Positions 43,862-57,534 of a stretch of DNA of 64,000 nucleotides are shown one piece after another. The notes beneath the pieces are model-generated. The model was not told the DNA's origin, made no database searches, and saw nothing but the letters and a program-made list of their open reading frames with translations. This DNA comes from Halobellus limi (GTDB taxonomy: Archaea > Halobacteriota > Halobacteria > Halobacteriales > Haloferacaceae), in NCBI RefSeq assembly GCF_004799685.1, contig NZ_CP031311.1, positions 744,001 to 808,000 of the forward strand, given 5' to 3'. The position numbers were made by a program, and so were the translations under genes. Position 1 is the first letter of the stretch; each line of letters starts with the position of its first letter.

Positions 43862-43966
43862 ACGCAGGGGTTACTCGTCGTCCGGTAAAGACGTTGGCAG
43901 TCGGTCGGGATCGGCTCCTGCCCTCGTTTCTCCACGCCGCATTCGGTCGAAGCGTTTGTATACTTC

Positions 43967-43981
43967 GCATACAATGTATGC
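43967..43981 (+). promoter_or_regulatory. Palindromic operator before the UPF0175/DUF3368 module
   Basis: gcatac-aat-gtatgc is a perfect inverted repeat ending three bases before the antitoxin ATG at 43985. A further half-site gtatac stands at 43958-43963. This is the usual place and shape for an antitoxin autorepression site. Confidence 0.6.
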
Positions 43982-43984
43982 AAT

Positions 43985-44275
43985 ATGGGAACCGTTTCGG
44001 CACGCGTGCCCGACGACGTCGAGTCCGAGCTCGAGGCGTACCTCGACGCCGAGAAGCTCGATCGGAGTACGGCGATTCGGAAACTCCTCTCCGAGGGGCT
44101 CGAACAGTGGCGTCGCGAACAGGCGCTCGAACGGCTCGACGCGGGAGACGTCTCTTTCAATAGGGCTGCGGAGATCGCGGGGCTGTCCGTCTGGGACTTC
44201 GCGCAGTTGGTCGAGGAGCGCGACGTCACGTGGGTCGCCGAGGAGCACCTCGACGACGACCTCGAGGCGCTGTGA
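43985..44275 (+). CDS. UPF0175-family antitoxin-like protein
   Basis: The 96-residue protein has a ribbon-helix-helix-like N-terminus (MGTVSARVPDDVESELEAYLDAEKLDRSTAIRKLLSEGLEQW) and a UPF0175 helix-turn-helix (DVSFNRAAEIAGLSVWDFAQLVEERDV). Such proteins pair with DUF3368 PIN-like toxins in archaea. The gene stops one codon before its partner's ATG, and a palindrome overlaps its promoter. It most likely binds DNA and the partner protein. Autoregulation is inferred. Confidence 0.85.
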   Translation: MGTVSARVPDDVESELEAYLDAEKLDRSTAIRKLLSEGLEQWRREQALERLDAGDVSFNRAAEIAGLSVWDFAQLVEERDVTWVAEEHLDDDLEAL

Positions 44276-44788
44276 ATGTGGGTCTTCGACGCCACGCCGC
44301 TCATCTACCTCGGGAAGACCGATTCACTCGACCTTCTCCGAAACCTCGACGAGCCGTGCGTGATCCCCGAGCGGGTCTACGCGGAGGTCGTGGAAGCGGG
44401 CGTCGAGCAGGGCCATCCCGACGCTCGACGCGTCGAACGCGCCGTTTCGGACGGCGTGTTCCGAGTGGTCGCGGTCGAAGAATCGGGGATGCTAACACGA
44501 CTGCGGGAGAATCCGAACCTCAGCGAGGCGGACGCGGCAGTTCTCGCCTGCGCCGACGCACGCGACGGGACCGCAGTGATGGACGAGGCCTACGGTCGCG
44601 ACGTCGCGGGAGTCGAGAACATCACGACTCGGGGCACGGCGTATCTCCTCTTACTTTTGGTGTCTCGGGACCGGATCACGGTCGAGACGGCACGGACCGT
44701 CGTCGACGCGATGGTCGAGGCGGGCTGGTACTGCGCGCCCGACGTCTACGCGAAGATTCTGCGGAAACTGGAGTCGTTCGAGGAGTGA
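44276..44788 (+). CDS. DUF3368 PIN-like toxin
   Basis: The 170-residue protein starts MWVFDATPLIYLGKTDSLDLLRNL. The PIN-like acidic positions are in FDATPLIYL, EVYAEV-like RVYAEVVEAG, LSEADAAVLACADARDG and AVMDEAYGRDVA. DUF3368 proteins are VapC-like presumed RNases. Its ATG directly follows the antitoxin's TGA without a gap. Whether it is toxic has to be shown by experiment. Confidence 0.85.
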   Translation: MWVFDATPLIYLGKTDSLDLLRNLDEPCVIPERVYAEVVEAGVEQGHPDARRVERAVSDGVFRVVAVEESGMLTRLRENPNLSEADAAVLACADARDGTAVMDEAYGRDVAGVENITTRGTAYLLLLLVSRDRITVETARTVVDAMVEAGWYCAPDVYAKILRKLESFEE

Positions 44789-45112
44789 TAGCGGCCGCTG
44801 CTTAGACCCGTGATAGCGGCTACCGCAACCGTCGAGAGTTCGTCACCGATTCGAACGCAGACTGACGGGGTTAGACGTCTCCTCGCACCAGCCGATCGAC
44901 GAACTGCTCTCGTTTCCTCCCCTTTGCTCGTCGGAGCCGGCGTCGTGTGCCGATTCGATCCGCGCGCTGTACGCATCGATGATTGATTCCTCGCCGACGA
45001 GCGGAGCAGCGTCCCGGAGCGCGGCGTACGCGACGTGGGTGGGCGGCGCCTCAATGTCGTGGTGGGTTGAAGCGACAGAACGCTTATCCCGAATTGTCGT
45101 CTACATTCGCGT
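44789..45112. other. Intergenic stretch between two toxin-antitoxin modules, with a possible gene remnant
   Basis: On the minus strand, about 45105 to 44880 stays open without a start codon and reads HDIEAPPTHVAYAALRDAAP, then LVGEESIIDAYSARIESA, with good haloarchaeal composition. A TAG closes the frame upstream. It may be the tail of a lost gene. The HicB promoter (cttatccc near 45083) lies at the other end. Confidence 0.35.
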
Positions 45113-45316
45113 ATGAGTATGGGCCGTGAGATCCGCCTGATCGAGGAGGACGAGGGCGGCTGGTCAGCCATCGACGAGGGGGTCGGCGTCGCCAGCCAGG
45201 GCGAGACGCGCGAGGAAGCGCTCGCGAACCTCGATGAGGCGGTCGCGCTGACGAAAGAAGCACGCGAGACCGACACGGACGCGCCGGTTGCGGACGCTCC
45301 CTGGTTCGAGGGATGA
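45113..45316 (+). CDS. hicB: HicB-family antitoxin
   Basis: The 67-residue protein has the HicB partial RNase-H-like fold: IRLIEEDEGGWSAIDEGVGVASQGETREEALANLDEAVAL. It lacks a separate DNA-binding tail. A TATA-like cttatcc lies 25-31 bases before the ATG. The last codons overlap hicA by four bases (ATGA). It neutralises HicA by blocking the active site in known systems. Confidence 0.88.
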   Translation: MSMGREIRLIEEDEGGWSAIDEGVGVASQGETREEALANLDEAVALTKEARETDTDAPVADAPWFEG

Positions 45317-45564
45317 GCGGCCCACCACGAGACTTCTCGGGTCAGGAGATCGTCAGCGTTCTGACCTCCTTCAACTATCGCAAGGATCGACAGCGGGGGA
45401 GTCACGCAGTTTTGAAATACACGAACCCCGACACTGGAGAAGTCCGAACCGTGACTGTCCCACTACACGACCGCGTGAAAATCGGGACATTGCATTCGAT
45501 TGCGGATCAATGCGGTGCGAATGACTTCGACGCGTGGTGTCGTTGGATCGATGCGAATCGCTGA
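45313..45564 (+). CDS. hicA: HicA-family mRNA interferase toxin
   Basis: The 83-residue protein has the double-stranded-RNA-binding-like HicA fold with the catalytic histidine in RQRGSHAVLKY, preceded by SGQEIVSVLTSFNYRKDR and followed by TVTVPLHDRVKIGTLHSIADQ. HicA cuts mRNA and arrests growth. The translational overlap with hicB is typical. The gene pair stands 460 bases before the first S-layer gene. Confidence 0.9.
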   Translation: MSGPPRDFSGQEIVSVLTSFNYRKDRQRGSHAVLKYTNPDTGEVRTVTVPLHDRVKIGTLHSIADQCGANDFDAWCRWIDANR

Positions 45565-46024
45565 GATATTACGCCTTCTGCGGTTCACGGCGTGCGTACA
45601 GACGCACGAAGCGATGAGAAACGGTACTCAATCGCACGTCCCGTTCGACGGGAGTTCCGCTGGACGACAACCAGAGTCCGACACGTGATCCGTCGGACCG
45701 GTTGATCCGTCAAACAACCCGACATCGCCGGCGAGTGCGAACAATTTAGGCACCGATTACACGCCGAAAAATGTTGTCCGATCGATCACCGAAAGGTGTG
45801 TGAACTGTTCTCACAGAATTCCGGGGTCTGGAGCGCTCTCGCGTCCGCTCAGCGTCAGACGACTACACAAAGTATTTACCGGACGTGGTACTTGGTTGTC
45901 CCGTACCCCTACCCATGGTGGCACCAGCGAGTACTGCGGACCACGTCCGGACGCCCGGACGCACGCATCGGCGTTTCGGTGCGCGCAAAGCTGTTGTCGC
46001 CGATTGTGGTCAACACAACAAACT
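45565..46024. other. Intergenic region before the first S-layer gene
   Basis: No gene is visible in 460 bases. The 3' part holds the predicted promoter (45871-45880), a GTACCCC motif (45903-45914) and a leader of about 120 bases to the ATG at 46025. Upstream in-frame codons from 45800 lack a signal peptide and run into promoter sequence. Confidence 0.7.
45871..45914 (+). promoter_or_regulatory. Promoter and initiator motif of S-layer gene 1
   Basis: TATA-like agtatttacc at 45871-45880 and gtacccctaccc at 45903-45914, about 28 bases apart. The same motif pair is in front of S-layer gene 3, and a shorter gtacccc in front of gene 2. Transcription probably starts at or near the GTACCCC, leaving a leader of about 120 bases. 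Confidence 0.55.
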
Positions 46025-48451
46025 ATGACAGGAAATACAACCAAGACCCGCGCAGTGATTCTCGCGGCGCTTATGGTCTTCAGCGTCTTCGCTGGGACCG
46101 TGGCGTTCACGGGGAGTGCTGCTGCTGGAACACCGACATACACTGGGAATGCTGTCCACTATGTAAATGAAAGTGGCAGCGGCACCCCTGTAGTTGAAGT
46201 ACCGTTCGAAGGTGGAACCATCGACGTGACCACTGTAAGTAACTCCAGCTTTACGCTGCTGGACGATGGAGACAACGCCAGCGCCTACGTTGAAAACTAC
46301 GAAGTCCGCGATGGTGCTGTCTACATCGAGGTGAACCAAACTATCGCCTCTAACGATTTAGAGGTAGATATTAGTGACACCGTCCAGTCTACCAGCAACG
46401 ACCCTGTGAGTAACCCTGGAGAAAAGTCCATCATCTTCGCAGGTCAAACGCTGGAGTTCGATGAATCCGCACCTACTCCGAGTTCACCGGCTAACTCGAG
46501 TGCATATCAGGGCTCGGTAGTTGCGATTGAGACGAATGCGACGAACACCGATGTGACTGTTGAAGGTGAGGACAACAACTACTTCAGCGAAGGAAGTACT
46601 GGTACCAACAGTACAGTCTTCACTTTTGACACTAGTGACCGCGAAATCGGCGAATACAGAGTCTTCGTTGCGGGTAGCGACGACAGCAACAATCGGACGT
46701 TCATTAACGTCCGCGACCTGCAGCTTGACGTTGAGGTCGACGATCTGAACGTCACCAACGAAGACACGATCGAAGGAACTGTCTCCGCTGTTGCGGGTGG
46801 TCGAAACGTTGATATCGATCTCCTCGACAGCAGTGGAGATAGCGTGAATACGACGAACGTTAACCTGAACGGACAGGGAGAATACGACTTCGAGTTCAAC
46901 ACTCAGACCGCAGACGATGGTTCCGTCCTCGAGACGGGAACCTACACGGTCGAAGTGACTGACACCACCTCCGGTGTCGCAACTGAATCCTCCGATATCG
47001 AGGTCTCAGAGGCGGCTGACGAGGACGTTGACTTCGCGTCTAACGTTATCTCGAACCAGCGTGGTGACTTCCTCGAGGCTACGGTCGAACTGACTTCGAC
47101 TGATACAGCGACGCTCTCGTTCGGTTCACAAAGCGACGGCGTCGTTGCGAACGCCACTGTTGAGGATGACGACGGTGACGGTCAGGTGACCGTCTACCTC
47201 AACACGTACAATATGCAGAACGGCAACGACGTCTACAGCCTAGACAGTGACAGCGACGACGTCATCCTCGATCAGAATAACCCCACGAAGACGTCTGATC
47301 TGATCGACGCGGGGGACTACGACTTCGAGGTCCAGGCCGGTGACCAGGGCGTCGGAACCGGCGTGACGAGCTCCGACGACGTCGCCACGGTGACGCTCGA
47401 AGAGCGCAGTACGGACGCCCTCCGGATGTGGACGGGTAGCTCCGACGAGATCGGCAGCGTCTCCGATCTCGAAGACGTCAACGAAGCGCTTGATGAGGGT
47501 CAGATCACCCAGTCCTCGGAAGTGGCTGTCGGTGATCTCGCGGTTCACCAGCTCGAAGCCTCCGGCTTCGAAGGTGCACTCGACGCTCGTGACAACGAAC
47601 TGGTCACGCAAGAGTTCGTGAATCTTAACCGGACTGGTCCGATCAACCTGACGATCGAAGAGGCCGATCCGGGTGCGAACCAGGCTCCGTCCGAACTCGC
47701 ACTTGACTCCACGAACAACCTGACCGTGATCGCCGATGGTGAGAACGACACCTACTTCATCATCGTCGACACGGGAGAGGCCCAGTTCAAGGGTGGAGAA
47801 GACCTCCCGGCTGACGACGACACGGCGCTGGAGACGAACTTCACCGTCATCAACCGCGACGCTGGGTACGACTTCACGCCTGAAGGCGAGTTCGACTCCG
47901 ACGAGAACGAGGAGACCATCCTCGAGTGGGGCGCCAACGAGCCGGACGTCACTGTCAGCCAGCCGTACAACGTCTCGCAGGCTAGTGGCCAGTCCATCAG
48001 CGGTACGACCAACATCGCTCCGGGCACGGAACTGAATCTCCGCGTCCGTAGTCAGAGCGGGACGAGCCCGAGCTTCCTGAAGACGGCCTCGCCGGTCGTC
48101 GAGTCGGACGGCACGTGGAGTGCCGAGTTCGACTTCAGTGAACAGAACGTCGGCGACGAGTACGACATCGTCGTTAACGCCAACATCCTCGCGAGCGCAA
48201 CCGAGGAAGAAGGCACAGTCGTCGAGGCTGTCGAAACCGACACCGCGACGCCTGAGCCGGACACGGACACGCCTGAGCCGGACACGGACACGCCTGAGCC
48301 GGACACGGACACGCCTGAGCCGGACACGGACACGCCTGAGCCGGACACGGAGACCTCCGAACCGACGGAGACCTCCACGCCCGGCTTCGGTGTCGTCGTC
48401 GCGCTGACGGCACTGCTCGCCGCAGCCCTGCTCGCGACTCGTCGCGACTAA
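46025..48451 (+). CDS. S-layer glycoprotein 1 (PGF-CTERM)
   Basis: The start ATG at 46025 gives 808 residues. The signal peptide (MTGNTTKTRAVILAALMVFS, cleavage after GSAAA) has the haloarchaeal surface-glycoprotein form. The ectodomain begins with a short AVHY module, followed by an Ig-like or beta-sandwich series with many N-x-S/T sites. Residues about 741-776 are five copies of a seven-residue DTPEPDT unit, a likely O-glycosylated spacer. The end, TSTPGFG plus a hydrophobic helix and RRD, is a PGF-CTERM sorting tail for archaeosortase A processing and lipid anchoring. It lacks the N-terminal domain seen in genes 2 and 3. Confidence 0.92.
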   Translation: MTGNTTKTRAVILAALMVFSVFAGTVAFTGSAAAGTPTYTGNAVHYVNESGSGTPVVEVPFEGGTIDVTTVSNSSFTLLDDGDNASAYVENYEVRDGAVYIEVNQTIASNDLEVDISDTVQSTSNDPVSNPGEKSIIFAGQTLEFDESAPTPSSPANSSAYQGSVVAIETNATNTDVTVEGEDNNYFSEGSTGTNSTVFTFDTSDREIGEYRVFVAGSDDSNNRTFINVRDLQLDVEVDDLNVTNEDTIEGTVSAVAGGRNVDIDLLDSSGDSVNTTNVNLNGQGEYDFEFNTQTADDGSVLETGTYTVEVTDTTSGVATESSDIEVSEAADEDVDFASNVISNQRGDFLEATVELTSTDTATLSFGSQSDGVVANATVEDDDGDGQVTVYLNTYNMQNGNDVYSLDSDSDDVILDQNNPTKTSDLIDAGDYDFEVQAGDQGVGTGVTSSDDVATVTLEERSTDALRMWTGSSDEIGSVSDLEDVNEALDEGQITQSSEVAVGDLAVHQLEASGFEGALDARDNELVTQEFVNLNRTGPINLTIEEADPGANQAPSELALDSTNNLTVIADGENDTYFIIVDTGEAQFKGGEDLPADDDTALETNFTVINRDAGYDFTPEGEFDSDENEETILEWGANEPDVTVSQPYNVSQASGQSISGTTNIAPGTELNLRVRSQSGTSPSFLKTASPVVESDGTWSAEFDFSEQNVGDEYDIVVNANILASATEEEGTVVEAVETDTATPEPDTDTPEPDTDTPEPDTDTPEPDTDTPEPDTETSEPTETSTPGFGVVVALTALLAAALLATRRD
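48248..48352 (+). repeat. Five tandem 21-base units in S-layer gene 1
   Basis: Units start at 48248, 48269, 48290, 48311 and 48332. The first four are identical and the last differs at its final base. Each codes for the same seven residues in the Thr/Pro/Glu/Asp spacer before the membrane tail. Genes 2 and 3 have similar but non-repetitive spacers. Confidence 0.95.
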
Positions 48452-48463
48452 GGCTCTGAACTA

Positions 48464-48482
48464 CCGGATCTAATCCGGCTTT
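48464..48482 (+). terminator. Hairpin with T-rich tail after S-layer gene 1
   Basis: Stem ccggat (48464-48469) pairs with atccgg (48473-48478) around a three-base loop, followed by ctttcgacttcccatttcttt. A near copy with the flanking sequence is found after S-layer gene 2 at 51681-51695. Confidence 0.55.
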
Positions 48483-48611
48483 CGACTTCCCATTTCTTTC
48501 GACGCTACGTCGGTTAGCGACAGCTTTGATACGAGTGTCTCTTCGTTCAGTTGCCCGTGATTCTGCTGCGTTTCGCCGGAGTGATTTTCGTCTCTGAGAA
48601 TCGGGAAGGAA

Positions 48612-48648
48612 TCTATTTAGGGCTCGTCTGATCCTCTTTTCGTACCCC
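48612..48648 (+). promoter_or_regulatory. Promoter and initiator motif of S-layer gene 2
   Basis: TATA-like tctatttag at 48612-48620 and gtacccc at 48642-48648, about 26 bases apart. The leader to the ATG at 48736 is about 94 bases. It is the shortest version of the motif shared by all three S-layer genes. Confidence 0.5.
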
Positions 48649-48735
48649 AGTCTGTGAGACGGTTGTGCCACGCTCTCGGTCGGTAAAGGGGGAGAGGGAG
48701 TCGGCGACGCCGTGCTCACTCGTGAAACTAACTTT

Positions 48736-51576
48736 ATGACAACAGAGACAAACAAGATCCGCGCGGTGTTCCTCGCGGCGCTTATGGTTCTCAGCGTCTT
48801 CGCTGGGACCGTGGCGTTCTCGGGGAGCGTTGCAGCGGCGGAAAGCGCAGACGGTGGAAGCGTCTCGAACGAGACGGTGTACGAACAGACTACCAACACG
48901 CACACGGTACAGCTCAACGCGACGCTGAATACGACTGCGACGAACAACCCGTCGAACGCGAACTACACGGTGACTTTCCCGGATTCGCCGGACTTCGACC
49001 TCTCCGCGGAGGATAACTCCACGGTCCAGATCCACGGGACGGGAAGCGGTAACGTCGACGTCTCGAACACCTACTGGGACTCGGCCAACAACAACTTCAC
49101 CGTCGAACTCGCTCGAACGGGTGCAGACGGTTCACCGCACGAACAGGACGTCAACCTCTCGTTCCGGCTTCGGAGCGTCGTCGCTCCGGAAGTGAGCAGC
49201 ACCACGAGCGGACAAGCGTCGTTCGCACTGGATACGAACGCTGACAATACGGACGAGTACTCGACGAACATCCAGCAGTTGACCGTCGAAGCGACGCCCG
49301 AGGGGGCACCCGAACTCGAAAGCGCCGTCCACTACGACGACACCATCGACGGTGGAGTCGGCGTCGAGCTGGCGTTCAGCGAGGCGGTCGACGTCGCCGC
49401 TGACGACATCACCCTCTACGAGGGCGACTCGGAGGTCGACGCCTACACCGTCGAGGACACCGGCGTCACGGGACGCGTCTTCGTCACTACGGACGGGGAG
49501 CTCCTGACCGGCGATCTCAAGGTCGGATTGTCGAGCGACATCGCGGACGTCGACGGTGACACGCTCGTCGACACCGGCAACAATTCCGTCACGTTCGCAC
49601 CCGTAACCGTGGCCGAGACAGACGACAAGAGTGCCTACAAGGGAGGAAACGTCGCGATAATCGGCGATCAGACGAACGACGATGTCGAGATCGAAGGTCC
49701 CGGAAGTTACTATTTCGAGGGCTCGACCGACACGAACAGCGAGGTACTCGTATTTAACACGACGAACCGTGACTTCGGTCAGTACAACGTCAGCATCGAC
49801 GGCAGCAATATTGACAGTACTCAGGTCACGGTTCGTGACCTCGGGTTCGGTGTCACCATTGACGACGTGAATGTCACCACCGACGACACCATTGAAGTGG
49901 ATCTCAGCGCTAACGCCGGAAATCGCGACGTCGAAGTCGATCTCCTCGACAGCAACGGTGACAGCGTCAACTCGACCCAAGTCACGACCGACGGTCAGGG
50001 AGAGGCGATCGTGGAATTCAACACCGCAACCGCTGACGGTGGCGATGCACTCGATACTGGTGACTACACGGTCGAAGCGACCGACCTGTTCTCCGGTGTG
50101 AGTACTGCGTCCCCGACGATTACTGTGAGCCAAGCCGCTGATACGGACGTCAACTTCGCGGAGAACGTAATCGTCAATCAGCGCGGTGACTTCCTCGAAG
50201 CCACCATCGAGATGACTCAGACCTCCGAGGCGACGCTTTCGTTCGGTTCGGAGAGTGACGGCGTCGTCGCGAACGCGACGGTTGACGACGCGGACGGCGA
50301 CGACCAGGTGACCGTACTTCTCAACACATACAACTTCAAGACCGGTGGTAACATCTACAGCTTACCGGATGACAGCGACGATGAACTCCTCGATCAGAAC
50401 CTACACACACCTGCTCTCGATGACCTGATCGACGCAGGCGACTACGACTTCGAGGTCCAGGCCGGCGACCAGGGCGTCGGAACCGGCGTAACGAGTTCCG
50501 ACGACGTCGCTACGGTGACACTCGAAGAGCGAAGCACGGACGCCCTCCGGATGTGGACGGGGAGCTCCGACGAGATCGGGAGCGTCTCCGATCTCGAAGA
50601 CGTCAACGAAGCGCTCGATGAGGGTCAGATCACCCAGTCCTCGGAAGTGGCTGTCGGTGATCTCGCGGTCCATCAGCTCGAAGCCTCTGGCTTCGAGGGT
50701 GCACTCGACGCACGCGAAAACGAGGACGTCACGAGTCAATTCCTGACACTCAACCAGTCTGGCCCGATCAACCTGACGATTGAAGAGGCCAGCCCCGGTG
50801 CGAACCAGCAGTCTCAGGAACTCGCTCTCAACTCCACGAACAACCTGACCGTGATCGCAGACGGTGTGAACGACACTTACTACATCGTCGTTGACACTGG
50901 CGAAGCCCAGTTCAAGGGTGGAGAAGACCTCCCGACGGACGAGGACACGGCACTGGAGACGAACTTCACCGTCATCAACGATGACGCTGGATTCGACTTC
51001 ACGTCGTCTGACCTCGACTCCGACGAGAACGAGGAGACCATCCTCGAGTGGGACGCCAACGAGCCGGACGTCACTGTCAGCCAGCCGTACAACGTCTCGC
51101 AGGCTAGTGGCCAATCCATCGGCGGCACGACCAACATCGCTCCGGGCACGGAACTGAATCTCCGCGTCCGTAGTCAGAGCGGGACGAGCCCGAGCTTCCT
51201 GAAGACGGCCTCGCCGGTCGTCGAGTCGGACGGCACGTGGAGCGCCGAGTTCGACTTCAGTGAACAGAACGTCGGCGACGAGTACGACATCGTCGTCAAC
51301 GCCAACATCCTCGCGAGCGCAACCGAGGAAGAAGGCACAGTCGTCGAGGCCGTCGAGACGCCGACGGCGACGCCTGAACCCGAGACCGACACCTCCCAGA
51401 CGGAGACGGACACGTCTTCCCCGGGGACGGACACGCCTGAACCGGATACGGCGACGCCCGAACCGGCTGCGGGGACCTCCGAACCGACGGAGACCTCCAC
51501 GCCCGGCTTCGGTGTCGTCGTCGCGCTGACGGCGCTTTTGGCCGCGGCCCTGCTCGCGACCCGCCGCGAACGCTAA
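48736..51576 (+). CDS. S-layer glycoprotein 2 (PGF-CTERM)
   Basis: The start ATG at 48736 gives 946 residues with signal peptide MTTETNKIRAVFLAALMVLS, cleaved after GSVAAA. An extra N-terminal domain of about 150 residues precedes the shared AVHYDDT module, which contains VGVELAFSEAVDVAADDITLYEGDSEVDAYTVEDTGVTGRVFVTTDGELLTGDL at 49330-49500. The rest follows gene 1 domain by domain. The segment EVQAGDQGVGTGVTSSDDVA to FEGALDAR is identical in protein to gene 1. The spacer (about residues 874-922) is Thr/Pro/Glu-rich. The PGF-CTERM end is followed by RRER, as in gene 3. Confidence 0.92.
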   Translation: MTTETNKIRAVFLAALMVLSVFAGTVAFSGSVAAAESADGGSVSNETVYEQTTNTHTVQLNATLNTTATNNPSNANYTVTFPDSPDFDLSAEDNSTVQIHGTGSGNVDVSNTYWDSANNNFTVELARTGADGSPHEQDVNLSFRLRSVVAPEVSSTTSGQASFALDTNADNTDEYSTNIQQLTVEATPEGAPELESAVHYDDTIDGGVGVELAFSEAVDVAADDITLYEGDSEVDAYTVEDTGVTGRVFVTTDGELLTGDLKVGLSSDIADVDGDTLVDTGNNSVTFAPVTVAETDDKSAYKGGNVAIIGDQTNDDVEIEGPGSYYFEGSTDTNSEVLVFNTTNRDFGQYNVSIDGSNIDSTQVTVRDLGFGVTIDDVNVTTDDTIEVDLSANAGNRDVEVDLLDSNGDSVNSTQVTTDGQGEAIVEFNTATADGGDALDTGDYTVEATDLFSGVSTASPTITVSQAADTDVNFAENVIVNQRGDFLEATIEMTQTSEATLSFGSESDGVVANATVDDADGDDQVTVLLNTYNFKTGGNIYSLPDDSDDELLDQNLHTPALDDLIDAGDYDFEVQAGDQGVGTGVTSSDDVATVTLEERSTDALRMWTGSSDEIGSVSDLEDVNEALDEGQITQSSEVAVGDLAVHQLEASGFEGALDARENEDVTSQFLTLNQSGPINLTIEEASPGANQQSQELALNSTNNLTVIADGVNDTYYIVVDTGEAQFKGGEDLPTDEDTALETNFTVINDDAGFDFTSSDLDSDENEETILEWDANEPDVTVSQPYNVSQASGQSIGGTTNIAPGTELNLRVRSQSGTSPSFLKTASPVVESDGTWSAEFDFSEQNVGDEYDIVVNANILASATEEEGTVVEAVETPTATPEPETDTSQTETDTSSPGTDTPEPDTATPEPAAGTSEPTETSTPGFGVVVALTALLAAALLATRRER

Positions 51577-51586
51577 CGCGTTCGCG
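51565..51586 (+). terminator. Perfect hairpin over the stop codon of S-layer gene 2
   Basis: cgcgaacgc (51565-51573) pairs with gcgttcgcg (51578-51586); the four-base loop taac contains the TAA stop. Gene 3 has the same arrangement at 54891-54912 with one mismatch. A role in termination or mRNA stability is inferred. Confidence 0.5.
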
Positions 51587-51610
51587 AGCGCCCGTCTCCG
51601 ACGAGGACGC

Positions 51611-51635
51611 CGTGAGAACTAACTGAGTTCTCACG
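51611..51635 (+). terminator. Ten-base perfect hairpin after S-layer gene 2
   Basis: cgtgagaact (51611-51620) pairs completely with agttctcacg (51626-51635) around aactg. It lies 35 bases after the stop codon. It lies between the two copies of the 14-base direct repeat. Confidence 0.55.
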
Positions 51636-51921
51636 AGCCCTCGTCTTCGACGAGGACGCCGCGACTAAACCGCTGAACCACCGGATCGAATCCGGCCGTT
51701 CGACTTCCTTTTCTTTCGGACGCGACGATCGAGAGCGGCAGCGCCGCGTACGTGTTGTTCGCTGTCTCGCCCGAACCCGACCCGTCGGCGGTACTCGTTT
51801 CGACTGTTTGCCGTCGTCGCTCAAATCGAGAGCCGACGGCCCGCCTCCCGGTATCGGCCGTTATACACCGACTAAACGGTCGGTAAGAACGTGTTAGTCT
51901 GCGAGTAGTTGTATGGCAACC

Positions 51922-51959
51922 CCTAATAGAGGCAGGTGGTCGTCCCAGTACCCCTACCC
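51922..51959 (+). promoter_or_regulatory. Promoter and initiator motif of S-layer gene 3
   Basis: TATA-like cctaatagag at 51922-51931 and gtacccctaccc at 51948-51959, about 22 bases apart. The 12-mer is identical to that before gene 1. The leader to the ATG at 52086 is about 138 bases. Confidence 0.55.
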
Positions 51960-52085
51960 GGAGGCGGCGGCCGGCCGTCCGAGAGATCCGATCGGCCCAG
52001 CGGGACGCGGAACCCACGTCGGGGGCGACGCCGGTCGGCGCAGTCGGACGGGCGGCGCGCCGCCATCGCGACCATTCACACAACT

Positions 52086-54902
52086 ATGACAGACCACACG
52101 AACCAGCGCCGCGCGGTGTTCCTCGCGGCGGTTATGATCTGCAGCGTCTTCGCCGGGGTCACGGCGTTCGCCGGGAGTACGGCGGCGGATCTGCACGGCA
52201 CAGACAACCCGGTGACGGTCGAGAACCCCGACACCGGCGCAACGACGACGCACACGCTGAACGTCTCCGCGAGCGACGGCACCTGGCCGGCGCCGATGGA
52301 CACCGACAGGATCAAAATCGACTACAGCGTCGGCTCGCAGGCGGCCGACGTGAGCGGCGTCGGCGCCGGCGACGTCACAGTCGTCATCGACGAGGCCGAC
52401 GGCAGCACGACGGACGTTGACGTCGACAGCGTCGCTAGCTCCAACGGCGGCGAGACGCTGACCATCGAGCTGTCGAGCGTCGAGGACGTCGGCGACGGCG
52501 ACGACGTGAGCGTGCGGCTCGACGGCGTCACGAACCCGCCGAACGCGGGCACCTACAACGTGAACTTCCGGGTCTCCGACGGCGGGAGCGGAGCCCAGAT
52601 CGCCGAGCTCTCCTATTCGATCGGCGACCAGTCGGAGGCGCCGCCGCAGCTCACGAAGGCCGTTCACTACGACGACACGGGTGACGAGGGAGTCGGCGTC
52701 GAACTCGCGTTCAGCGAGGCGGTCGACATCGCCGCCGACGACGTCACCCTCTACGAGGACGACAGCGAGGTCGACTCCTACACCGTCGAAGACACCGGCG
52801 TCACGGGACGCGTCTTCGTCACCACGGACGGCGAGCTCCTGACCGGCGATCTGGAGGTCGAACTGTCCGACGACGTCGCGGACCTCGACGGCAACACGCT
52901 CGTCGACACCGGACGCAACGACGTCACGTTCGCGCCGGTGACGGTGAAGACGAACGACGACCGGGGCGCCTACCGAGGGAGCACCGTCGCCATCGTCAGC
53001 GACAGCGGGACCGACGTCGGTATCCAGATCGAGGGTCCGGACCAGTACTTTTTCGACGGCTCGACGGACACGAACAGCGAGGTGTTCGTCTTCGATACGG
53101 AGGGGCGGGACCTCGGCGAGTACAACTTCGGCATCGCGGGCAGCGACAACGAGGACACCCGGCTCGATCTGCGTGACCTCGGGCTGGCGGTGACCGTCGA
53201 CGACGCCACCGTCACGAACGCGGAGGCCATCGAGGGGACCGTCGAGGCCCGAAGCGCCGATCGACCGCTCACGGTCGAACTGCTCGACGGCGGCGGCGAC
53301 ACGGTCGACGGATCGGAGACGGCCGCGACGCTCAACGGCCAGGGCGAGTACGACTTCGCGTTCGACCTCTCCCCGTCCGGACTCGACGTGGACCCGGGGA
53401 CGTACACGGTCCGGGTGACCGACGACTACTCCGGCGTCGAGGCCGACTCCTCGGACGTCACCGTCCGGGCGGCGAGCGAGGAGGACGCGCAGTTCGCGAG
53501 CGGCACAGTCACCGACCAGCGCGGTGACGTCGTCGCGATCACGGTCGACATAGAACGCACCGATCAGGCGACGGTGACCGTCGGTACCGAAGAGCAGGGT
53601 CTCGTCTCGACGGCGACCGTCGAGGACGGGAACGACGACGGGACGGTCACGCTGTATCTCGACACGTCGATCGGCGCGCTCGCGCAGTCGGAGGGATCCT
53701 CCAGCACCGGTGGGTACGGGATCTACACGGTCGCCGCTGACGACGACGAGGTCGTCGCGGCCGGTCTCTCGTCCAACGTCGACGACCTGATCGACGCCGG
53801 GACCTACGACCTCGAAGTGACGCCGGGACGGGACGCTTCGGCGGACTCGACCGACATCGCCTCGCTCGTCCTCGAAGAGCGCGGGACGACCGCGTTCGAC
53901 ACGTGGACGGCTCCGGGGTCGCTCTCGGTCTCCGACCTCGAAGACGTGACGACGGCGATCGAGAACGACGAACTCACGCGGGCCTCCGAGGTCGCCCGTG
54001 GCGACAAGGTCGTCCATCGTCTCCAGGCGTCCGGCTTCGAGGGCGTCCTCGGCGCACAGGGTGACGAGGACGTCACGGCCGCGTTCTTCGACAACGCCGG
54101 CTCTGGAACCGGTATCTACGACCTGACCGTCGAACAGTCGCAGGCCGGCGCGAATCAGGATCCGTTCGAGGTCGCGCTCGGTCCCGACAACACGACCGTC
54201 GTCGCCGACGGTGACGGCGACACCTACTACGTCGTCGTCGACACGAGCGCAGTCACGACGACTCGCTCGGACGGCGAACTCCCCGCCGACGAATCGCTGA
54301 CGGCGGAGTTCACCGTCTACGACGACGACTCGACTGACTTCCTCCCCGACGACGTCGACGAGAATCAGACGACCTCCGTCGACTACGACGTCGTCGAACC
54401 CGAGATCACGGTGAGCGAACCCCACGACGTCGCCCCCGCCGGCGGACAGACGATCACCGGCACGACGACGTACGCGCCGGGGACGGAACTGCGCGTCCGC
54501 GTCCGGAGCGCGGGCGAGACCAGTCCGAGCTTCCTGAAGACGGCGGCGCCCACGGTGGGGCCGGACCGGCGGTGGAGCGCGACGCTCGACTTCGCAGAGC
54601 AGAATGTCGGCGACACCTACGAGATCGTCGTCGAAGGCGACGACGCGGAGACGACCGAGGACGGCGAGGTCGTCGAGGCCGTCGAGACCCCGGCCGAGAC
54701 GCCGGGTCCGGATACGGACACGCCGGATTCGACCGCGACGGACACGGCGACGGCCGAACCCGACACCACCACCGCGGCTTCCGAACCGGGGACGACCGAA
54801 CCCGCGACGGAGACGTCGACCGCCACGCCCGGCTTCGGCGTCGTCGTCGCGCTGACGGCGCTTTTGGCCGCGGCCCTGCTCGCGGCGCGCCGAGAACGCT
54901 AA
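52086..54902 (+). CDS. S-layer glycoprotein 3 (PGF-CTERM)
   Basis: The start ATG at 52086 gives 938 residues. Signal peptide MTDHTNQRRAVFLAAVMICS is cleaved after GSTAA. The N-terminal domain is different from gene 2, but the AVHYDDT module and the series that follows align with it. Base composition is markedly more GC-rich and the sequence has fewer N-x-S/T sites than gene 1. The spacer (about residues 868-915) is Thr/Ala/Asp-rich, and TATPGFG with a hydrophobic helix and RRER closes the PGF-CTERM tail. It is a full-length paralogue, not a relic. Confidence 0.92.
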   Translation: MTDHTNQRRAVFLAAVMICSVFAGVTAFAGSTAADLHGTDNPVTVENPDTGATTTHTLNVSASDGTWPAPMDTDRIKIDYSVGSQAADVSGVGAGDVTVVIDEADGSTTDVDVDSVASSNGGETLTIELSSVEDVGDGDDVSVRLDGVTNPPNAGTYNVNFRVSDGGSGAQIAELSYSIGDQSEAPPQLTKAVHYDDTGDEGVGVELAFSEAVDIAADDVTLYEDDSEVDSYTVEDTGVTGRVFVTTDGELLTGDLEVELSDDVADLDGNTLVDTGRNDVTFAPVTVKTNDDRGAYRGSTVAIVSDSGTDVGIQIEGPDQYFFDGSTDTNSEVFVFDTEGRDLGEYNFGIAGSDNEDTRLDLRDLGLAVTVDDATVTNAEAIEGTVEARSADRPLTVELLDGGGDTVDGSETAATLNGQGEYDFAFDLSPSGLDVDPGTYTVRVTDDYSGVEADSSDVTVRAASEEDAQFASGTVTDQRGDVVAITVDIERTDQATVTVGTEEQGLVSTATVEDGNDDGTVTLYLDTSIGALAQSEGSSSTGGYGIYTVAADDDEVVAAGLSSNVDDLIDAGTYDLEVTPGRDASADSTDIASLVLEERGTTAFDTWTAPGSLSVSDLEDVTTAIENDELTRASEVARGDKVVHRLQASGFEGVLGAQGDEDVTAAFFDNAGSGTGIYDLTVEQSQAGANQDPFEVALGPDNTTVVADGDGDTYYVVVDTSAVTTTRSDGELPADESLTAEFTVYDDDSTDFLPDDVDENQTTSVDYDVVEPEITVSEPHDVAPAGGQTITGTTTYAPGTELRVRVRSAGETSPSFLKTAAPTVGPDRRWSATLDFAEQNVGDTYEIVVEGDDAETTEDGEVVEAVETPAETPGPDTDTPDSTATDTATAEPDTTTAASEPGTTEPATETSTATPGFGVVVALTALLAAALLAARRER

Positions 54903-54963
54903 CGCGTTCGCGAGCGCCGTCTCCGACACCGACGCTTTTGCCGCACGGGCCCTACTGTGAGGT

Positions 54964-55389
54964 ATGACAGATCTCGCCGACGCGGTCGAGGGAATCGTCC
55001 ACGAACCGACGCAGGTCCGGGAGGGCGGCGTCGATCTCACTGTGAGCGAAATATACGAGATCCACGGGGCGGGACGGATCGATTTCGGTGGCGACGAACT
55101 CCGGGATGCGGATCTCGTTCCCCACAGCCGGATCTGGCGCGACGAGGGCGACGACTACCAGTGGTGGCACCTCGAATCGGGGACGTACCTGTTGGAGTAC
55201 AACGAGTCGCTGTCGGGCGTATCGCCCGCCGACGAGGTGGGGCTCCAGCCGCGGACGGAGGTCCTCGAACGCGGCGCGTCCCACCCGTCGCTCCGGGTCG
55301 AGACGCTCCCCCGCGTCCCGCTGACGGTCGGCGGCGCGGGCGTTCGCCTGAAGGAGAACGCGCGGGTGTCGACGTTGCTCACGCGGTGA
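54964..55389 (+). CDS. dut: dUTPase/dCTP deaminase-family protein
   Basis: The 141-residue protein belongs to the trimeric dUTPase-like fold: LADAVEGIVHEPTQVREGGVDLTVSEIYEI (strand and uracil-binding region), DYQWWHLESGTYLLEYNESLSG and GLQPRTEVLERGASHPSLRVE. The last conserved block is short but ends GGAGVRLKENARVSTLL. It most likely hydrolyses dUTP, which prevents uracil incorporation into DNA. Assignment against dCTP deaminase rests on its short length and is not certain. It is 61 bases after S-layer gene 3. Confidence 0.8.
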   Translation: MTDLADAVEGIVHEPTQVREGGVDLTVSEIYEIHGAGRIDFGGDELRDADLVPHSRIWRDEGDDYQWWHLESGTYLLEYNESLSGVSPADEVGLQPRTEVLERGASHPSLRVETLPRVPLTVGGAGVRLKENARVSTLLTR

Positions 55390-55510
55390 GTTCGCACTCC
55401 TCCGGGCCAGTTCCGGGGGCGAACCCCGGTCCGGCCGTGCCGCCGTAGACACCGGCGGCCCCGCGGTACAGACGGCCGATGCGAGACGACGGCGATACCT
55501 CGTGTCCGGG

Positions 55511-55849
55511 CTACTTCCACGGTGTGCCGACGACCTCGGCCTGGATGCCGTGACCGACGCGGAGCCGACAGTCCGTCTCCGGCGTGGCGATACAGGGAAG
55601 GACGTATCCCGCGTCGAGCGCCCGGTCTTTCAGCGCTCGCGGCGGCTCCAAGTGCGTCATCTCGCCCTCGAGCAGTTCGGCGGTGCAGGTCCCACAGGCT
55701 CCGTACAGACACCCGTAGGGGAGGGAGACGTCGGCTGCCTCGGCGGCGTCGACCACGGTCTCGTCGCCACCGACGCGAATCCTCTCGTGTCGGCCGTCCG
55801 CCCAGCGGAGTTCGACGGTGTGCGTCGCGCGTCGGCGACGCCCGTTCAC
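55511..55849 (-). CDS. Plant-type 2Fe-2S ferredoxin
   Basis: A GTG start at 55849 gives 112 residues. The cluster ligands C-x4-C-x2-C and a distant C are visible in LPYGCLYGACGTCTAEL and YVLPCIATPE. The GTG shares bases with the TGA of the SBP56-like gene (GTGA), so the two are translationally coupled. It is shorter and less acidic than the classical haloarchaeal ferredoxin and probably is a dedicated electron carrier of the upstream enzyme (inference). Confidence 0.9.
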   Translation of the reverse strand: MNGRRRRATHTVELRWADGRHERIRVGGDETVVDAAEAADVSLPYGCLYGACGTCTAELLEGEMTHLEPPRALKDRALDAGYVLPCIATPETDCRLRVGHGIQAEVVGTPWK

Positions 55850-57258
55850 TGCCAGACGTCGCTGGTGCAGTCGCCACCGGGCCAGCGGATCTCGTGGGCG
55901 CGCGCCGGGCCGCCGGGCGCGTCACCGAAGTCGACGAGGAACTCCTCGTCCAGCTCCATTCGCCCCTCGTCGGGGTAGACGTCCGCCTTCAGCATCAGCG
56001 ATCCATCCTCGGCGATGTCGGGGAAGAACTGGTTGTCCCACGAGGAGAAGAGCGACGTCGTCCAGTAGAGCCGCCGGCCGTCGCGGGAGAGCTGCAGCAT
56101 CTGCGGTGCGCCGCGGATCTCGGTGTTCTTCACCTCCTGTCGGTCGCCGAACAGCCCGCCGGCCCACACCCGGTCGACCAGCCGGGGATTCGCCGAGTCG
56201 CTCACGTCGTACATCCGCACGTCGCCGTGGAGCCAGTTCGAGAAGAAGAGGAACTGGTCGTCGAGCGACAGGAGGATGTCGGTGATCAGCGGCGGAACGG
56301 GCATGTCCCAGTCTTCGTGTTCGCGGGGTTCCTCGTCGATGACGACGTCCCAGTCCCACGTGCCGTCGTCCTCCTCGTAGAAGCGGATGATGTTCGAGGA
56401 CAGCGCGGCGCCGACGTAGCCCTGCGTCTCCTCGGGGTTGTGGCTCATCCGGACTTCCAGCGGGATCCGACCGCGTTCGCCGAACTCCAGGGTCTGGACG
56501 TGCTCGCGGTCCTCCCAGGCCCAGACGTGGATGCTGTCTCCGTACTTGCCTTCTTCGACGTCTTCGAGGTCGAAGCCCGGATAGTAGGTGTTCGGCGCGG
56601 CCCACTCGCTGGAGATCAGGACGTCGTGACGCGGCTGATACCAGTAGTCGTAGTTCATCTCCATCTCGCCGCGATCGGCCTCCCAGTGGCCCTCGATGCT
56701 GAAGTCCTCCTGATCGAGCTGCAGGAAGCCGCCGGGGAGTTCGCCCTCGGCGTCGCCGAGCATACTGACGACGACCTTGCCGCCGGGGACGCAGTGGACG
56801 GTGTGGGGAGCCGAGAGGTCGTGGGCGAACACCTCCTCGGGTTCGATGACCTTCACCATCTCGGGGTCGCGCGGGTCCTCCGCGTCGATGACGTGGATGC
56901 GCGAGGAGCGCTGTCCGGGAACGACGAGGTACTGGCGAGTCAGTCCCTCGGCGTGGCAGGACGACGAGCAGGCGTTCCAGCCGAAGTGGTGGAGTTCGTC
57001 GCCCCTGTTCGGCATCTCGACGGTGTCGATGAGTTCGCTGTACGTGTCGGATTCCGGGTCGAGGTCGACGACGCCGACGAAGTCCGGGCCGTCCTCCTCC
57101 ATCCCTACTCGGGGGGCCATCACGTACGCCGTCTGCTCCCGTCCGCCCTCGGTTCGCATCGCGGCGGGCGTCGGATAGCCCGGTCCCTCGACTTCGTAGT
57201 GTTCCTGGTGTCCTCGGCTACTGTGCTCCGAATGGGGGGAAGGGTCGTCGGTGCTCAT
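55846..57258 (-). CDS. Selenium-binding protein SBP56 / methanethiol oxidase-like
   Basis: The 470-residue protein matches the SBP56 family over its whole length: HHFGWNACSSSCH, VIDAEDPRDPEMVKVIEPEE, NYDYWYQPRHDVLISSEWAAPN, EVRMSHNPEETQGYVGAALSS, ITDILLSLDDQFLFFSNWLHGD and the end GGDCTSDVWQ. Family members oxidise methanethiol to H2S, formaldehyde and H2O2 with a copper centre. The usual CSSC is CSSSC here (Cys97, Cys101). The very AT-rich promoter and the coupled ferredoxin set it apart. Activity is inferred. Confidence 0.93.
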   Translation of the reverse strand: MSTDDPSPHSEHSSRGHQEHYEVEGPGYPTPAAMRTEGGREQTAYVMAPRVGMEEDGPDFVGVVDLDPESDTYSELIDTVEMPNRGDELHHFGWNACSSSCHAEGLTRQYLVVPGQRSSRIHVIDAEDPRDPEMVKVIEPEEVFAHDLSAPHTVHCVPGGKVVVSMLGDAEGELPGGFLQLDQEDFSIEGHWEADRGEMEMNYDYWYQPRHDVLISSEWAAPNTYYPGFDLEDVEEGKYGDSIHVWAWEDREHVQTLEFGERGRIPLEVRMSHNPEETQGYVGAALSSNIIRFYEEDDGTWDWDVVIDEEPREHEDWDMPVPPLITDILLSLDDQFLFFSNWLHGDVRMYDVSDSANPRLVDRVWAGGLFGDRQEVKNTEIRGAPQMLQLSRDGRRLYWTTSLFSSWDNQFFPDIAEDGSLMLKADVYPDEGRMELDEEFLVDFGDAPGGPARAHEIRWPGGDCTSDVWQ

Positions 57259-57280
57259 CCTCGCTTCGAAGTTTCACCTC

Positions 57281-57308
57281 AATGAATTAATATTATATTT
57301 AATATTTG
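57281..57308 (-). promoter_or_regulatory. AT-rich promoter of the SBP56-ferredoxin operon
   Basis: Twenty-eight bases of almost pure A and T (aattaatattatatttaata within it) lie 23-50 bases before the SBP56 ATG complement at 57258. It is the most AT-rich stretch in the last 10 kb and can hold more than one TATA box. Confidence 0.6.
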
Positions 57309-57378
57309 TGTCGTTTTAGGTTCGTATAGAAGGTCTCAGAGAACGCTCTCGCCATCGAGAGAAACGACGAACCGATGA

Positions 57379-57534
57379 GTGCCCGGGGTGGGCTCCGAAC
57401 CCACGATCTCCGCATATCCCAGGTCCGAGGCTCGGCGGGCCCCGTGGGGAGCGGCGGAGGCTTCCAAGGCGTACCGCACCGAATCTCAGGAAACCCTATG
57501 AGTGCGGCGCTATGTCCAGCTAAGCCACCCGGGC
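57379..57534 (-). tRNA. Elongator tRNA-Met (CAU) with an 82-base intron
   Basis: On the minus strand, the 5' half GCCCGGGTGGCTTAGCTGG runs from 57534, the anticodon CAT is at 57500-57498, and the 3' half from 57414 pairs with it: anticodon stem CCGCA/TGCGG, T arm GTGGG-TTCGGAG-CCCAC and acceptor CCCGGGC. The intron is 57496-57415, after the base 3' of the anticodon, the normal archaeal site. Haloarchaeal elongator tRNA-Met is known to carry such introns. A TTTAAG box is about 20 bases upstream (57551-57560). The CCA end is not encoded. Confidence 0.93.

Follow-up and report, generated by a model that had tools for sequence, protein, structure and literature searches.

What does a haloarchaeon do with three full-length S-layer glycoprotein genes that stand head to tail: are they equal coats to be swapped, or one main gene accompanied by accessory copies? 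The array that raises this question lies in a 64,000-nucleotide stretch of Halobellus limi DNA (the window, which is the whole stretch that was analysed). Its genes are here called g1, g2 and g3, the genome under study is labelled G000, and its relatives are labelled G002-G015. S-layer proteins of haloarchaea serve both as the cell wall and as a virus receptor (PMC9973310, PMC10544981).

The array and its products

As proposed in the preliminary description of this locus, three intact PGF-CTERM glycoproteins are encoded head to tail at 46025-54902, all by ATG-started ORFs on the plus strand (Table 1). Each of the three exceeds the cut-off of 24.6 for TIGR04207 (haloarchaeal surface glycoprotein signal peptide), the curated cut-offs for DUF7827 and the BGTF surface domain (NF045517), and the cut-off for the PGF-CTERM sorting tail (TIGR04126/PF18204). 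The signal peptide and sorting tail that had been described are recovered as domain-model matches in every protein, and the Thr-rich spacer is present. The claim that all three share the same domain series holds from approximately the middle of the proteins onwards, but not at the N-terminus, where g1, representing a short type (A), lacks the ~130 additional residues of the long type (B) represented by g2 and g3.

Table 1. Features of the S-layer locus, in positions of the window.
Feature	Position	Strand	Basis or description
Variable island holding the array	43905..57378	.	alignment to G008, G011
Conserved S-layer core promoter of g1, ACACAAAGTATTTA ... ACCCCTACC	45865..45913	+	aligned upstream regions
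Structured 5' leader RNA of g1, ~120 nt	45903..46027	+	model R1, 132 bits; ends at ATG
g1	46025..48451	+	short S-layer glycoprotein (type A) of 808 aa with a C-part of class 1
Exchange tract, g1 in common with g2	47315..48226	+	silent codons
Thr/Pro-rich spacer of g1	48239..48364	+	21-nt (7-residue) tandem repeats, repeat family D1
Hairpin CCGGATCTAATCCGG after g1	48464..48478	+	read from sequence
g2	48736..51576	+	long S-layer glycoprotein (type B) of 946 aa; N-part of type B joined to a g1-like C-part of class 1
Exchange tract, g2 in common with g3	49324..49578	+	polymorphic sites
Exchange tract, g2 in common with g1	50440..51348	+	silent codons
3' end of g2	51486..51592	+	PGF-CTERM, stop, 16 nt beyond; repeat family D5
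Degenerate leader relic before g3	51948..52088	+	13.8 bits; keeps only GTACCCCTACCC, basal stem, start region
g3	52086..54902	+	S-layer glycoprotein of 938 aa, B-like, with a C-part of class 2
Exchange tract, g3 in common with g2	52659..52913	+	polymorphic sites
3' end of g3	54812..54918	+	matches g2 end
tRNA-Met(CAT) with 81-nt intron	57379..57534	-	right island edge

Seven PGF-CTERM matches are present in the genome, the three strongest being g1, g2 and g3; full-length homologues of lower similarity are encoded at two further places, C1:604448 and C1:2462527. Judged by their profile scores, the three proteins are homologues of NF041335 (ArtA-dependent S-layer glycoprotein) rather than that equivalog, since they score 505-537 bits (E 4e-151 to 1e-160) against a threshold of 1100. 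Likewise, TIGR04216 (the HVO_2072 family), which needs 400 bits, is matched at 72 bits by g1 and 33 bits by g3, and not at all by g2. For the AlphaFold model of g1 (mean pLDDT 78), to which the fold comparison applies, the best match in the PDB is 7ptp ('In-situ structure of pentameric S-layer protein'), with an E value of 1.5e-18 over 710 columns and a TM score of 0.31-0.34 for a flexible multi-domain chain. A sequence search found no relatives in the PDB, the likeness to 7ptp having come from the fold search. The locus is thus supported as a real multi-copy S-layer array.

The third gene is atypical. Its GC3 is 0.902, as compared to 0.705 for g1 and 0.778 for g2, with neighbouring genes mostly near 0.9, and its N-glycosylation sequons number 3, as compared to 18 in g1 and 20 in g2. 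Relative to composition shuffles, sequons are enriched in g1, g2 and nearly all other A and B genes, but not in g3. Mutation bias, and not function, could account for both the GC3 and the sequon loss of g3, and it is likely, from its sequence, that g3 is little expressed or conditionally expressed. A missing enzyme was ruled out as the reason for the scarcity of sequons, aglB being present; that gene is 13.6 kb past the end of the window, which places the array in linkage with the region for N-glycosylation.

Mosaic structure of the copies

In a search of the contigs of relatives, each species being represented by one genome, g2 alone as query retrieved nothing, and an alignment as query retrieved 52 loci. 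Across Halobellus the C-parts fall into two classes, such that g1 is A1, g2 is B1, and g3 is a B gene with a class 2 C-part. Tandem pairs in G005, G006, G007 (H. clavatus) and G013 have the same genes in the same order as here, A preceding B, but without the third copy, the combinations being A1-B1 in G005, A2-B2 in G006, and A1-B2 in G007 and G013. Those of G006, G007 and G013 occupy the same genomic slot as the array, and the G006 pair is also mosaic. A single A1 gene is found in G014 (H. inordinatus) and G015 and a single A2 gene in G003 (H. captivus), and G004 carries B1 in the slot and A1 elsewhere on the same contig.

The nucleotide identity of g1 and g2 is 40-55% in the N-part as against 97-99% in parts of the C-part, the C-part of g2 being 91% identical to that of g1. 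Within the tract that they have in common, 86.8% of silent codons are identical, as compared to 56.8% outside it (permutation p 0.0005). The G006_1/G006_2 pair gives the same pattern in this permutation test, in which none of six cross-genome control pairs was significant at 0.05. Protein constraint as the source of the g1/g2 identity is ruled out by the silent codons, and chance by the control pairs. A further, N-terminal tract shared by g2 and g3 (amino acid columns 236-341) scores 136 on polymorphic sites, where permutations reached at most 28 (p 0.002); on silent codons alone p is 0.066. In addition, the 3' end of g2 shows 93% identity with that of g3, and 76% with that of g1.

N-part and C-part trees conflict. 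For the N-part, the AU test rejects sisterhood of g1 and g2 (p 3e-72), and for the C-part it rejects both sisterhood of g2 and g3 (p 2.6e-8) and a single clade of all B genes (p 3e-74). Tracts and trees support movement of sequence between the copies, with g2 as a chimera; the conversion may have run from g1 to g2 or in the opposite direction. A simple recent unequal crossing-over that turned A1-B2 into A1-B1-B2 does not suffice by itself, as the spacers g1-g2 and g2-g3 have no repeat of at least 40 nt in common and the end of g2 is closer to that of g3 than to that of g1. Several conversion tracts fit the sequences better than one unequal crossing-over.

Promoter and leader RNA of g1

The suggestion that each gene has its own promoter, as three equivalent genes would, does not survive comparison of the upstream regions, for the conserved promoter and leader are found on g1 only. 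The core promoter has a single match genome-wide, at g1, and a covariance model search finds the leader once in this genome, before g1. By the covariance model, there is no leader or relic upstream of g2, a region that retains a TATA-like box and a GTACCCC element, and g3 is preceded by the relic listed in Table 1. Alignment of upstream regions shows the promoter and leader of g1 to be conserved among A genes; in Halobellus, exactly one leader is present in each genome that has an A-type gene (9/9), and the B genes of the Halobellus genomes examined are without a conserved leader. The absence of a leader is, in itself, no proof of low expression.

The leader is not confined to Halobellus. The covariance model search found it in 106 of 242 genomes of the haloarchaeal class, representing 42 of 73 genera (homologue loci L052-L065, L069, L070, L136-L179 and L186-L220), and, together with a fixed upstream TATA box, it sits before S-layer-type genes or signal peptides in many haloarchaeal genera. 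Covariation in the model-fitted alignment is strong, with 122 doubly changed cells where shuffles give 47.7 +/- 5.2, and the signal collapses in slid controls. De novo folding of the leaders of other genera gives the basal stem only, the upper helices resting on the model-fitted alignment and on the 13-sequence building set. No Rfam family matches the leader, and it may represent an undescribed element that controls S-layer synthesis or mRNA stability.

Other arrangements of the leader are seen outside the genus. For instance, G022, from another genus of the family, has four leader-bearing S-layer-type genes (L060, L061 and C1:808039), two of which are convergent at a locus that shares the DUF7115/DUF5830/VTT flank. 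In the case of G054, from another family, two S-layer-type genes separated by a few kb are both preceded by a leader match, whereas here g1 alone has a leader. Downstream of g1 is a hairpin, and a sequence resembling it is present between the A and B genes of relatives; it is possibly a terminator.

A variable locus and its interpretation

In most carriers among the relatives, the slot lies between an MCH cyclohydrolase gene and VTT/DUF5830/DUF7115 genes, the exceptions being the array of G005 and one G004 gene, both located elsewhere. The preliminary description had called for a search of related genomes for different copy states, and these exist: the slot holds 0, 1, 2 or 3 genes among congeners. 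The picture is thus not one of the same three-gene array standing unexchanged in every close relative, as copies have exchanged sequence and copy number varies. In alignments with G008 and G011 (H. rarus), which are the nearest relatives, homology ends near 43,905 and returns near 57,378, and their slot contains no S-layer gene, with ~4 kb of other genes instead. These comprise an SDR gene and genes resembling the pntA/pntB transhydrogenase, the latter assigned by reading the translations (L118 13189-17135 and L119 12180-16021).

At another locus, a divergent PGF-CTERM surface glycoprotein is encoded in tandem arrays in G008 (L062), G011 (L063) and G002 (H. rufus; L064). Because the proteins examined from these arrays hold only 1-9 sequons, N-glycosylation of the main coat may be poor in the three species, despite the presence of aglB. 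Within the island, a PIN-like DUF3368 gene is found just left of the array (44276-44788) and is possibly one half of a toxin-antitoxin pair. The intron-bearing tRNA-Met(CAT) gene at the right edge was missed by a default tRNA search.

The tree of the locus is discordant with the species tree. The N-part of g1 groups with G004b and G005_1 (support 99/99), and the flanking genes, which represent the species, reject a G000+G004+G005 clade (AU test, p 8e-7). We infer transfer of the locus by homologous recombination, or else loss and replacement in G008 and G011.

How, then, are the three genes likely to be used? Three equal coats that are swapped freely are not supported. The reading that we prefer, with a probability of about 0.7, is that of one main S-layer gene (g1) with recombining, horizontally mobile accessory copies (g2 and g3). 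The assignment of g1 as the main gene follows from the leader, which is single in this genome and on g1, occurs once per A-type Halobellus genome, and is associated with S-layer genes across haloarchaea. Here, g1 would be transcribed from the conserved S-layer promoter with its structured ~120-nt leader and would build most of the lattice, g2 would be an alternative long subunit with a C-part overwritten by g1 sequence through gene conversion, and g3 would be an atypical, sequon-poor copy that is rarely or conditionally used. The whole locus would be replaced or transferred between species by homologous recombination through the conserved flanks, such that coat composition would shift quickly over evolution. 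We infer also an expression hierarchy, assembly into one lattice, and virus-driven selection, and evasion of viruses by coat variation is plausible. A more elaborate version, which we regard as doubtful, is a coat-diversification system in which the leader defines the lattice-building copy, a fixed expression gene, and leaderless neighbours swap segments into chimeras. The corollary that gene conversion would keep those leaderless copies in step, as they supply or receive segments, is held just as tentatively.

Other uses of the array can be imagined. If g1 (A) and g2 (B) were obligate partners in one hetero-lattice, with C-parts alike for shared lattice contacts and the membrane anchor, the A-then-B order kept in G000, G005, G006, G007 and G013, the abundance of sequons in both types, and the coexistence of two S-layer proteins in Haloarcula hispanica (PMC9943897) would all be expected. 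We nonetheless consider this unlikely, given that the slot of G003, G014 and G015 contains one A gene only, with no B gene detected in these genomes, that B genes are without the conserved leader, and that silent-site identity indicates DNA exchange rather than protein constraint. Comparable odds apply to an ordinary duplication in tandem, after which the copies, passively homogenised in a polyploid archaeon that recombines readily, would serve gene dosage only. The diverged N-parts (~40-55% nucleotide identity) are not those of recent dosage copies, and the recurrent replacement of S-layer genes among closely related species would point to selection, but copy number does range freely from 0 to 3, and efficient gene conversion is reported for polyploid Haloferax volcanii (PMC11276520).

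Less probable still is that g2 and g3 form a silent archive of mostly unexpressed donors that are copied into g1, in the manner of pilin or VSG archives. Such donors would be expected to lack a leader, as g2 and g3 do, and both the conversion tracts and the single leader per Halobellus genome with an A gene are compatible with copying into one expressed site. However, the supposed donors are full-length genes that retain a start codon, a signal peptide and elements resembling a promoter, and the N-part of g1 clusters among other A genes, with no donor insert seen.

The statement that most haloarchaea studied rely on one main S-layer gene needs qualifying, since two proteins are published for three species and tandem A-B pairs exist in four other Halobellus genomes. 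Haloarcula hispanica has two S-layer glycoproteins (PMC9943897), Csg1 and Csg2 (UniProt G0HV85 and G0HV86; PMC8640222), as compared to the three genes found here. Two S-layer genes that are 41% identical, Hlac_2976 and Hlac_0412, are carried by one strain of Halorubrum lacusprofundi, where one lies inside a large deletion that spares the other; one of the proteins is a virus receptor, and a benefit against viruses has been proposed (PMC10544981). These two do not constitute a mosaic array. In Haloferax gibbonsii (HfgLR_11210 and HfgLR_04635), one of two S-layer proteins serves as a virus receptor, and loss of one gene is tolerated and gives virus resistance (PMC9973310), but the locus numbers of the genes are far apart, in contrast to the head-to-tail array described here. 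Recombination events are reported in Haloferax S-layer glycoprotein (SLG) genes (PMC5867893), where they occur within clades of strains and not among paralogues that stand in tandem in a single genome. For Halorubrum, strains are reported to diverge in their S-layer (PMC6011602). Thus, two-gene cases have already been published, and the three-gene mosaic array extends a known kind. The open-access literature yielded no three-gene mosaic array, no genus-wide combinatorics of A/B by 1/2 and no such leader RNA, and among literature naming both Halobellus and the S-layer no study of the Halobellus S-layer was found.

With between 0 and 3 genes in closely related genomes and swaps that can be traced between copies, the locus represents a concrete system in which to ask how a cell changes an essential coat. 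The leader RNA provides a handle on the production of a very abundant haloarchaeal protein, as well as a simple rule by which the main S-layer gene can be separated from its paralogues.
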